Below are positions 22,989 to 60,618 of a stretch of 64,000 nt of DNA, one piece after another. Each line of letters starts with the position of its first letter. The first letter of the stretch is position 1. The notes beneath the pieces are model-generated. The model made no database searches, was not told the DNA's origin, and saw only the letters and a program-made list of their open reading frames with translations. A program made the translations under genes and the position numbers. Origin of the DNA: Thioalkalivibrio sp. ALE14 (GTDB lineage: Bacteria > Pseudomonadota > Gammaproteobacteria > Ectothiorhodospirales > Ectothiorhodospiraceae); NCBI RefSeq assembly GCF_000376845.1, contig NZ_AQXY01000031.1, forward strand, positions 62,001 through 126,000, written 5' to 3'.

Positions 22989-23011
22989 GGTTTCGTCTCC
23001 CGGGCCTGTTG

Positions 23012-23298
23012 TAGGGAAACACTGATCCATGTACACGCTCGCGCTCGAGTCGCTTTTGCGTGCGAACAAGGCGCGGTGACCGCCGTGCAGTCATTCTGCA
23101 CAAGGGAATCGCAACGCCGTGCGCGCGCCAGTTTCGGTCGACAACGGGCGGCCGGGCCCCTTCGGCGTTGGCACCCAAGGTTCCCCGATCCTGCGTTGCG
23201 GCCCTTGCCGGTAGAACCACTACCGACTGCGCACCGCGCCTTGTCTCGGAAAACCTGGGGTGCCAACGCGAGCGTGTACATGGATCAGTGTTTCCCTA
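23012..23298. mobile_element. 287-bp foldback (MITE-like) element, copy 1
   Basis: The element is bounded by a perfect 32-base terminal inverted repeat (23012-23043 and 23267-23298) beginning TAGGGAAACACTGATCC. Inside are nested inverted repeats: AAGGCGCGGTG/CACCGCGCCTT, GCGTTGGCACCC/GGGTGCCAACGC, and small hairpins TGCAG..CTGCA and GGTAG..CTACC. No protein is encoded. If the element proper begins at GGGAAAC, the outer TA on both sides could be a 2-base target duplication. A related copy in the opposite orientation is at 60306-60618. It looks like a non-autonomous transposable element; its transposase family is not identified. Confidence 0.85.
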
Positions 23299-25252
23299 GA
23301 AATCGCAGTGCGGCGGCCGGTTCCCGCGTGCGATGGAACGGCGGCAGGCTGGCCAGGAAGCGCCGGCCGTAAGACTTCCCGGTCAGGCGCGGATCGCACA
23401 GGGCGAGGATGCCGGCATCATCGGCATCCCGAATCAGCCGTCCCGCGCCCTGCTTCAGAGCCAGCACCGCCTGCGGCAGGGTGAATTCCATAAACGGCGA
23501 ACGCCCCTCGGCCTCCAGTGCCGAGGCCCGGGCCTGCAGCACCGGGTCATTCGGCGCGGCAAACGGCAGGCGGTCAATGATCACGACGGACAGTGCCTCG
23601 CCGCGAATATCGACCCCTTCCCAGAAGCTGTGCGCCCCCAGCAACCAGGCCCTTCCCGACTCGCGAAAACGCGCCAGCAGATCACCCCGCGGCTGTTCCC
23701 CCTGCACCAGCAGCTCGCGGTCATCCGGCAGCTCGGCTCGCAGGATCGTCGCCGCCTCCTGCAGGGCCCGGTGGCTGGTAAACAGAAAGAACCCCCCACC
23801 GGGATTGTCGCGCAGCAGGGGCCAGGCCCAGGCGATGCAGGCCCGCGTGTACCCCGGATCGTTGGGATTGGGCAGTGGAGGCTGTGGATGCACCAGACAG
23901 GCCTGGTGCGGGAAGTCAAAGGGGCTGTCCAGGCGCTCGCTGGCCACGTCCGCCGGGAGCCCGAGCCGGCGCGCGGCGTGACCGAAGTCCTCACCGACGG
24001 CCAGCGTCGCCGAGGTGAAGATCCAGGCTGCCGGACGCGCCGCCCGGCGCTGCGCCAGGGGGCGCGCCGCATCCAGCGGGGTTCGGTGCAGGGTCAGGCT
24101 CTGGCTGAAGCGCTCTGCCCAGGCCACCGTGTCGGGCGTCTCCTGGCGCCATTCGCGCAGGCGTTCAAGCAGGAGGGCGCTGCGCGCGCGCAGCTGCTCC
24201 AGGCCTGGCGCCCGCGGCGCCGCCGCCTCCAGGGCATCGCCGACAAAACCCAGCGCCGCGTCCAGCCGGTCCAGCAGCGGGTCGAGGGCGCCATCCGGGT
24301 TGACCGTGTCCCAGCTCGAGCGCCCTTCCCAGGTCCGCGAGGCGTCGAGCAGCTCGGCCACGCTGGCCTCCAGTTCCGCGACCCGCTGACGGATATCGAG
24401 CATCTCCGGGGCGTGCTGCTCCTGCTCGCGCCGCGCATCGCGCGCCAGCTCCCGCAGCGCACGGGTCCCGACCGCAATCCCGAAGAACGACCCGGCGATA
24501 TCGGGCAGCTGATGCGCCTCGTCCACGATCACCGCGTCGACCTCCGGCAGGAGCTCCCCGAAGCCCTCCTCCTTCAGCGCCATGTCGGCCAGCAGCAGAT
24601 GGTGGTTGACCACCACCACGTCTGCCTCCTGCGCCCGTTTGCGTGCCTGCACCACGAAACAGTCGTTGTAGTTCGGACATTCACCGCCCAGACAGTTGTC
24701 CACGGTCGAGGTTACCTGCGGCCACAGCATCGAGTCCTCCGCGAGGATCCCGGCCTGACCCAGATCGCCGGTATCGCTGGACCGCGCGAAACGTTGCAGC
24801 GCCTCGATCACCGGCAACTGATCCCGCCGCACACCGCCACCGGTCGCCCCGCCAGCCTCCGCGGCCGCGAGTTCCAGCCGGTAGTGGCACAGGTAATTGG
24901 CCCGCCCCTTCAGCAGCGCCGCGCGCGGGCGATACCCGAGCGCCTCGCAGACCATCGGCAGGTCGCGTTCGAAGAGCTGGTCCTGCAGGGTCTTGGTCCC
25001 GGTGGAGATCAGTGCCCGGCGGCGCGACTGCAGGATCGGCACCAGATAGGCGAAGGTCTTTCCGACCCCGGTGGCCGCCTCGACCAGCAGCGCGGTGGGC
25101 GCGGTGGCCAGCGCCTCTTCCACGGCCACGGCCATGCGCTGCTGCGGCTCGCGCGGGCGAAAGCCCTCCACCGCAGTGGCAAGGTCACCGCCCGGGCTCA
25201 GGGCACGCACAGCCGCCGAGCCCGCCGCGACGGTGCTGAACGCGTCAGACAA
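23285..25252 (-). CDS. yoaA: YoaA/DinG-family ATP-dependent DNA helicase
   Basis: This roughly 655-residue superfamily 2, XPD-like iron-sulfur helicase has Walker A EAATGVGKTFAYL near the N-terminus. Cysteines for the 4Fe-4S cluster are in NYLCHYRLE and DNCLGGECPNYNDCFV, the DEAH box is VIVDEAHQLPD, and later motifs are GVDIRGEALSVVIIDRLPF and GAGRLIRD. YoaA acts in DNA repair at stalled forks. The start is uncertain: a TTG at 25252 gives MSDAFST and overlaps the previous gene by 8 bases, while the ATG at 25306 would overlap by 62. The last four residues (LGKH) and the stop lie in or at the edge of the foldback element's terminal repeat. Confidence 0.92.
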   Translation of the reverse strand: MSDAFSTVAAGSAAVRALSPGGDLATAVEGFRPREPQQRMAVAVEEALATAPTALLVEAATGVGKTFAYLVPILQSRRRALISTGTKTLQDQLFERDLPMVCEALGYRPRAALLKGRANYLCHYRLELAAAEAGGATGGGVRRDQLPVIEALQRFARSSDTGDLGQAGILAEDSMLWPQVTSTVDNCLGGECPNYNDCFVVQARKRAQEADVVVVNHHLLLADMALKEEGFGELLPEVDAVIVDEAHQLPDIAGSFFGIAVGTRALRELARDARREQEQHAPEMLDIRQRVAELEASVAELLDASRTWEGRSSWDTVNPDGALDPLLDRLDAALGFVGDALEAAAPRAPGLEQLRARSALLLERLREWRQETPDTVAWAERFSQSLTLHRTPLDAARPLAQRRAARPAAWIFTSATLAVGEDFGHAARRLGLPADVASERLDSPFDFPHQACLVHPQPPLPNPNDPGYTRACIAWAWPLLRDNPGGGFFLFTSHRALQEAATILRAELPDDRELLVQGEQPRGDLLARFRESGRAWLLGAHSFWEGVDIRGEALSVVIIDRLPFAAPNDPVLQARASALEAEGRSPFMEFTLPQAVLALKQGAGRLIRDADDAGILALCDPRLTGKSYGRRFLASLPPFHRTREPAAALRFLGKH

Positions 25253-47244: not shown

Positions 47245-47594
47245 ATTGCATCCAGCAAAGCAGGGTTGGCGAACTATATCCCGACAACGCAGGTTGGGCA
47301 ATTCGACCGAGCCAGCCATATGCGGCCCCACCGGTAAGACGCAGCGAGCCCATCGGATATTTCGGCTCCGCCCCAAAACGATACGATCCGCCCGCGCGCC
47401 TGGCCTCCAAACGAGGGATGATCCGCAACACGTTCGATCTCGTCCCCGCACAGGAACGACTGCCAGGCAGGGACGCTCCCAAGAAAGTCCCGAAGTTTTC
47501 GCTTGTTAGGGCTACGATTCGTGTATGATGCCGGGTTGGCAGTTGCCATCCGATTTTCGCCGGGCCTTTGTTTCCGGCCTGTGTGAGTATCCCA
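47245..47594. promoter_or_regulatory. 350-base divergent intergenic region (arsR-like / deaD) with a deaD promoter
   Basis: No gene is evident. On the plus strand, TTGTTA (47503-47508) and TATGAT (47524-47529), 15 bases apart, could be the deaD promoter, giving a leader of about 60 bases rich in TTTT and GGC tracts. On the minus strand, a TATAGT-like sequence near 47270-47275 could be the -10 of the ArsR-type gene. The leader of deaD may carry cold-shock control, as in other bacteria, but no specific element is identifiable. Confidence 0.45.
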
Positions 47595-60305: not shown

Positions 60306-60618
60306 AGGGAAACACTGGTTAATCTACACGTTCGCGTTGGTGCCCCATGTTTCCCGAGACAAGGCGCGGTGCGCAGCCGGTAGTGGGGCTACCGGCCCGT
60401 TGTTGACTGATTCGGGCCGCAACGCTGCATCGGGGAACATGGGGCACCAACCCCACAAACTATTGAACGCAGGGGCTCGGCCGCCCGTTGTAATCAAAAA
60501 CGGGCGCGCACACGGCGTTGCGGTTCCCTTGTGCAGAATGCTGCACGGCAGTCACCGCGCCTTGTTCGCACGCAAAATCGACTCGAGCGCGAACGTGTAG
60601 ATTAACCAGTGTTCCCCT
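60306..60618. mobile_element. 313-bp foldback (MITE-like) element, copy 2
   Basis: Terminal inverted repeats of 31 bases (60306-60336 and 60588-60618) begin AGGGAAACACTGGTTAATC and differ at one position. In reverse complement, most of the element aligns with copy 1, for example TGCACAAGGGAA..GCAACGCCGTG and GCGCACCGCGCCTTGTCTCGG. Stems are kept while loops differ (CCGGTAG..CTACCGG). No protein is encoded and no obvious target duplication is present. It ends 34 bases before the ppk start codon, with the same end facing the gene as copy 1 has towards tsaB. Confidence 0.85.

Follow-up and report, generated by a model that had tools for sequence, protein, structure and literature searches.

The window analysed in this study, the whole 64,000-nt stretch of contig NZ_AQXY01000031.1 of Thioalkalivibrio sp. 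ALE14, contains two related and strongly folded segments, E1 and E2 (Table 1). A sequence-only reading of the window had described a perfect 32-base terminal inverted repeat enclosing nested inverted repeats, and the sequence confirms that both segments exist, the perfect repeat being that of E1. The ends of E1 are perfectly complementary over 32 bases (35 nt at 97% in a repeat search) and enclose further inverted repeats at 23066-23078/23232-23244 and 23165-23188/23246-23269, and E2 (60306-60618) is a diverged reverse complement of E1 with arms of 31 nt at 97%. Compared to dinucleotide shuffles, the RNA folds of E1 (z -9.55; matched by none of 200 shuffles) and E2 (z -10.29; by none of 100) are exceptionally stable, and with DNA parameters E1 gives a z of -10.14. 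A simple scan found no promoter-like or intrinsic-terminator-like signal inside E1. The best explanation, and probably the correct one, is that these segments are MITEs moved in the IS5 manner whose interior consists of two structured arms acting as folded single strands.

Table 1. Features of the two MITE copies, in window positions
Feature	Positions	Strand	Remarks
E1, MITE copy without target duplication	23015..23295	+	ends GGAAACACTG...CAGTGTTTCC
E1 left terminal inverted repeat	23012..23043	+	32 nt including flanking bases
E1 right terminal inverted repeat	23267..23298	-	
E1 left target flank GTAG	23011..23014	.	empty sites of relatives here read CTCCAG, CTCGAG or GGCCAG
E1 right target flank CTAG	23296..23299	.	
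E1 L-arm module	23057..23126	sense +	R3 72.9 bits, E 3.5e-17; family in R3 training set
E1 R-arm module	23184..23250	sense -	R3 49.1 bits, E 6.1e-11; R arms in R3 training set
E1 L-arm hairpin tip, long form	23128..23149	+	G011 has the short form at the orthologous site
E1 middle hairpin region between arms	23154..23167	+	family consensus loop TTCG
E2, MITE copy without target flanks	60308..60616	-	
E2 terminal inverted repeat, low-coordinate end	60306..60336	+	
E2 terminal inverted repeat, high-coordinate end	60588..60618	-	
E2 L-arm module	60506..60574	-	R3 65.7 bits, E 2.7e-15
E2 R-arm module with long tip	60348..60434	+	R3 27.5 bits, E 3e-05

Copy number, ends and movement of the family

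The sequence-only reading had counted two copies, and held that confinement to two, a lack of inverted-repeat boundaries in other genomes or a lack of empty sites would speak against a mobile family. The first figure needs correction, as the genome itself carries about 50 copies: at least 41 long places were found by BLAST (40 of 82 candidates scored), and 51 matches by R1, a covariance model of the L-arm core built from 54 copies. R1 matched 16 of the 30 genus genomes, including the own genome, with 5-70 matches per genome, and gave no match in the remaining 14, among them the single-contig genomes G010 and G012. BLAST over 58 genomes returned matches in 17, consisting of the own genome, 15 of the 29 other genus genomes and G051, which lies elsewhere in the class and gave one weak match. 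Zero matches resulted from a plasmid search with E1 and from a phage search with the element at L221, and a plasmid search with the latter found three records (one from Halomonas and two from Azotobacter) covering 16-17% of the query.

Among 83 copies in two genomes, the ends lie 262-313 bp apart, and elements terminate in GGAAACACTGAT; the ends in the window read GGGAAACACTGAT and belong to repeats of 31-35 nt in both copies. The inverted repeat bounds the element in other genomes as well. Exact 4-bp direct repeats flank 31 of the 83 copies, compared to a mean of 13.7 and a maximum of 22 in 1000 shuffles. Twenty-seven of these duplications are CTAG or TTAA, which are palindromic, so that a direct repeat is indistinguishable from an inverted one for 27 of the 31; the other four are TCAA, CTAA, CTTG and TTAG. 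Matching flanks were found at 10 of the 62 copies outside CTAG/CTAG. The common flanks are CTAG, TTAG, TTAA and CTAA, with CCAG and CTTG also frequent, a pattern that fits the 4-bp YTAR target duplication of the IS5 group. Empty sites are present in relatives at both window positions, with flanks 4 bp apart for E1 (L112-L115) and 3-5 bp apart for E2 (L138-L142), where the left flank aligned at only part of the loci and many loci are uninformative. Among the loci examined, the E1 site is also occupied in G011, and the E2 site in G011 and G004.

The transposase family that the sequence-only reading left unnamed is IS5. DDE_Tnp_1 was matched 36 times in 15 of the 30 genus genomes searched, and loci were obtained for 30 of the matches. 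MITE-type ends (at most two mismatches) surround the transposase at eight of these loci, with both ends present at seven, and the eight are distributed over five genomes (G000, at a contig edge, G011, G013, G022 and G029); L090, L108 and L109 each have a single isolated end match with two mismatches. The element is ~1.2 kb long, and its 321-aa product at L083 belongs to the IS5 family (NF033581 at 319.3 bits, where the cut-off is 140; PF01609 and PF05598). Copies of the insertion sequence are flanked by 4-bp duplications of CTAG (L083 and L095), TAAG (L084) and GTAG (L101), and the copy at L082 lacks one. Derivation of the MITE interior from this insertion sequence was rejected, as BLAST found only chance-level pieces beyond the ends.

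The target duplications, the empty sites and an insertion sequence with the same ends agree with the earlier description of a MITE or structured intergenic repeat, and the classification as a MITE moved in an IS5-type manner is well supported. The IS5-family transposase would move the MITE in trans by recognising the terminal GGAAAC(A/G)CTGATNNAT, duplicating 4 bp that are usually CTAG or TTAA; the shared ends, duplications and empty sites are direct observations, and it is from these that the action of the enzyme on the MITE is inferred. No description of the family was found in the open-licence literature, including the portions consulted of PMC10969869, PMC3733652, PMC4853749, PMC2229807, PMC5039591 and PMC9778887, and the literature searched does not print those of its end and arm strings that were looked for. 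The label "undescribed" given by the sequence-only reading would therefore apply to open-licence sources, and an earlier description elsewhere is possible.

Several copies have unusual surroundings. At L083, a MITE (1002-1311) whose terminal repeat is the variant GGAGACGCTGAT... lies directly against the IS5-family element (1312-2519), the two sharing a CTAG. The copy at L060:3399-3466 stops after ~64 bp, and the unrelated DNA adjoining it resembles another insertion element. Unpaired single terminal repeats occur near genes at L061, L065, L066, L068, L070, L074, L076 and L079; in the own genome, some unpaired repeats belong to copies that have partly decayed or look like an insertion-sequence end and others are partnerless, and some may be decayed insertion-sequence ends. 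In the mechanical list of open reading frames across E1, a minus-strand frame of 673 aa, which we take to be DinG-like, stops inside the terminal repeat (23285-23299; last codons LGKH, stop TGA), so insertion at a gene end can furnish a new stop codon.

Anatomy of the interior and its occurrence in other genera

Rather than a decayed transposase gene, the interior holds an L arm, a small middle hairpin and an R arm, in that order between the terminal repeats. The two arms are inverted, non-identical hairpins, and a conserved, structured module of ~70 nt caps each of them. In the module common to both, read on each arm's own strand, CAAGGCG is followed by a helix, a tandem G·A pair and a short hairpin, after which come AAG and GCAACGC. 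The tandem G·A pair is present in L arms and in most arms elsewhere and absent from the R arms of this genus; the pairs are kept in 38 and 39 of 47 modules. A broadened covariance model, R2, was trained on 47 modules. R1, although trained on L arms only, also matches R arms at L001, L007 and L017 (E 0.004-0.036) and the R arm of E1 (E 0.036). The broadest model, R3, recovered all four arms in the window together with one chance-level place (47247-47299, E 0.18).

The earlier statement that stems are retained while loops differ holds across the 83 copies. Each of the three hairpin tips has either a short form or a form ~15 nt longer, the long tips being variable. Typing succeeded for 72 of the copies, which show seven of the eight possible tip combinations and fall into element length classes near 266, 281, 296 and 310. 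Long L tips occur in both orientations. At the sites shared by the own genome and G011, six of the seven element pairs show a length difference of 15 or 30 nt, one of them with a flank divergence of only 1-3%, which indicates that tip switching is fast. At L233:1392-1569, both arms lie in the same orientation, as though one entire arm had been flipped.

The arm module extends far beyond the genus. In the class, 369 genomes were sampled, and R1 matched 34 of them, of which 32 lie outside the genus; in total the matches cover 29 of 271 genera. R2, at E<=1e-5, matched 77 of 398 sampled phylum genomes in 40 of 213 genera, with E-values that are rough in both scans and have no reversed-sequence control. 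The 77 genomes consist of the own genome, 26 others of the class and 50 outside the class; spread outside the class is mostly that of one lineage, because 42 of the 50 belong to a single family (f207). The layout of the loci lends the matches independent support. Fifty-seven loci outside the genus, which are the best matches rather than a random draw, comprised 31 inverted pairs, one direct pair and 25 single modules. Twenty-three of the 31 inverted pairs are spaced 107-109 nt apart, and the order is plus then minus in 36 of 37 pairs when the own genus is included. Similar terminal repeats, many of the form AGGGCCTGTTAACAC, bound 30 of the 31 paired elements, and the two arms differ in type in 26 of the 31 by the rule that one has a paired helix III and the other G·A pairs there. 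The matches to the covariance models, the fixed spacing and the agreement of the terminal repeats together place the same arm pair in similar elements of many other genera of the phylum. At curated thresholds, Rfam identified only three tRNAs in the window and nothing in 20 loci, and with E1 alone it gave one chance-level match (E 3.7). A likeness is also seen between the genus terminal repeat AGGG-AAACACTGAT and the AGGGCCTGTTAACACTGAT of other genera after a short internal loss, which suggests one old family of ends.

Possible strand constraint and the orientation of the arms

The outer stems of the arms, which lie outside the model, pair well in 76 of 88 modules, compared to a mean of 7.25 and a maximum of 14 when partners are swapped. 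Outside the genus, their mismatches read in module sense are G·T in 57 cells and A·C in 17, and by locus the lean is 28 G·T to 4 A·C (p 2e-5, a value that, like the others given here, is optimistic because related sequences are non-independent). As G·T pairs keep the fold of only one strand, this excess suggests that the sense strand of each arm is constrained. The signal comes from the class loci (38:6), the phylum loci alone giving a non-significant 19:11 cells and 10 modules against 4; the set without f207, the one over-represented family, gives 40:6. The terminal repeats of the same elements, a small control, gave 8:5, and an excess of this kind could also arise from C-to-T mutation biased towards one strand. 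Elsewhere in the module, the G·T:A·C ratio is 14:2 in helix III, 11:4 in helix IV and 19:35 in helix II, and the innermost hairpin is Watson-Crick in 438 of 444 cells, with one G·T and one A·C.

Within the genus, selection on the RNA strand was sought among 102 modelled pairs and not seen there (G·T:A·C 96:130 uncapped and 68:64 capped); the outer stems of four own-genus loci gave 11:0, from six closely related modules. Compensatory changes affect 12 of 27 pairs in the terminal repeats, 6 of 36 in the R arm and 1 of 36 in the L arm, and their being commonest in the terminal repeat fits arm-to-arm correction. The covariation score of the fitted alignment is 0.496 compared to 0.175 when shuffled, in alignments (A2 and A3) that were fitted to the model, so that pair counts favour structure. 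The sequence-only reading had proposed selection on the structure or conversion between arms, and this holds in part: positions 13-14 of the terminal repeats co-vary between the two ends in most copies, the long tips are found in either orientation, and strand-specific stem constraint appears outside the genus.

Orientation relative to transcription is strongly skewed. The 157 copies in the sampled genomes were reduced to 129 independent sites by flank comparison, and 87 of these lie between co-directional genes, with the sense of the L arm opposing the genes at 69 and agreeing with them at 18 (p 3e-8; gene neighbours were assigned by a simple ORF heuristic). The remaining sites are convergent (19), divergent (20) or unassigned (3). 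Opposing to agreeing copies number 26:9 in the own genome, 19:6 in G011, 15:4 in G029, 8:1 in G005 and 17:1 in others, counts that precede deduplication, overlap to some extent between groups and include for G029 and G005 only the copies from earlier searches, which are fewer than all. Relative to replication direction, the one nearly complete genome (G029) was roughly balanced at 17:12, with the origin assumed at base 1. Since both ends of the element are nearly identical, the interior must set the orientation, and coding effects at insertion cannot do so. Outside the genus, where orientation was counted by arm type instead of by L arm and gene neighbours were assigned by the same heuristic, the ratio was 10:4, which is not significant.

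Possible role of the arms and relationship to known elements

Under the preferred reading, each arm would act in its own sense as a single strand that folds, most likely as RNA. Because the arms are inverted, the first arm to leave the polymerase is in sense whichever strand is transcribed. An L arm in sense might harm the host transcript, for example through cleavage or polarity, in which case copies so oriented would be removed. Our best guess favours an element of RNA processing or transcript stability over a promoter or an intrinsic terminator; on comparative evidence, the arms may function as folded RNA and the interior may exceed mere filler. A broader proposal, which we advance tentatively and rate at somewhat less than an even chance, is that the modules form a phylum-wide class of structured RNA outside Rfam, spread as cargo of IS5-type MITEs, in which the inverted pair yields a sense arm first from either side and governs host tolerance, so that mainly one orientation is kept.

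There are several potential explanations that differ from this one. It is possible, though in our view unlikely, that the arms matter as DNA, with hairpins or a cruciform conserved in replication or transposition through strand exchange, protein binding or repair avoidance. Such a role would account for a near-perfect Watson-Crick innermost hairpin, which RNA need not have, and would agree with the joint change of positions 13-14 at both ends, the long tips in both orientations, the paired arms of one orientation at L233, the strong DNA folding of E1 and the modelled pairs within the genus without G·T excess. However, a 69:18 transcription bias without a clear replication bias (in the one genome counted) is hard to explain at the DNA level, because the two ends are nearly identical. 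The structure might instead be unselected, with the arms kept paired by template switching within palindromes and by conversion among copies. At the seven sites shared with G011, orthologous elements diverge by a median of 4.5% compared to 9.5% for their flanks, with the element lower in five of the seven, and a paralogue is closer than the orthologue in two; the length differences at six of these pairs and the predominance of compensatory changes in the terminal repeats point the same way. Yet self-correction predicts zero asymmetry between G·T and A·C, whereas the outer arms outside the genus give 57:17, and it leaves both the kept tandem G·A pairs and the orientation bias unexplained; we allow it only a slight chance.

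The origin of the arms is a separate matter, and their identity with the core of the Neisseria Correia element (CREE/NEMIS), which would place the family there, seems improbable. Correia elements are likewise small, high-copy, intergenic and strongly folded, with terminal repeats, in the parts consulted of PMC10969869, PMC2229807 and PMC9778887; the strings ACAAGGCG, AAG and GCAACGCC appear by eye to be common to both, and R2 gives E 0.0044 for one Neisseria repeat, L284:1739-1807, whose ends are related. Nevertheless, none of the ten weak matches of R1 fell at a located Correia copy (40 loci), Correia copies scored no better than E 0.02 with R2 and were for the most part matched only partially (40 loci), and the best R3 value over 75 loci was 0.13. 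With R1 and R3 negative and R2 marginal, membership is not claimed. Correia elements have one core, whereas the family described here has an inverted arm pair, and its terminal repeats are unrelated, the window ends differing from the Correia TATAGTGGATTAA given in the excerpts available of PMC5039591 and PMC9778887.

Other known elements share some of these properties. The CIR elements of Caulobacter and Brucella are also built of two long inverted repeats forming linker-joined arms with conserved structures, a comparison made by description only; unlike the present family, they are ~110 bp long with a GANTC motif at the loop (PMC2229807, as far as consulted). REP/REPIN elements of the GTAG families, reported in two Thioalkalivibrio isolates, resemble the family in being palindromic and intergenic, but are associated with IS200/IS605-type RAYT transposases (from the part consulted of PMC3733652) instead of DDE-type IS5 ends and duplications, and REPs, at 20-40 bp in the excerpts available, differ in size from an element of 262-313 bp. 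The closest relationship is with IS5-family (IS5 group) insertion sequences and their derived MITEs, which agree in ends, in the 4-bp duplication and in the occurrence of an IS5-family element in the same genus; in contrast to these, the MITE interior has nothing in common with the insertion sequence apart from the ends, and it is conserved independently across genera.

The interiors of bacterial MITEs are usually regarded as leftover DNA specific to one genus. The movement of the present family is ordinary, but its structured interior is unusual and widely shared: a two-arm interior in many genera of one phylum, often behind related ends, with a suggested constraint on the fold of one strand and an orientation strongly biased against transcription. 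This raises the testable question of whether transposon passengers bear RNA devices that make insertions tolerable to the host, for which the MITE and the IS5-family element of the same genus provide an experimental pair, and the covariance model can now be used to annotate many intergenic repeats.

One further arrangement was seen in Neisseria sp. HMSC077D05, where a small element (L284:1700-1830) with the ends TATAGCGGATTAAA directly adjoins a normal Correia element and has a core resembling the arm module (R3 E 0.22, beside the R2 value given above).
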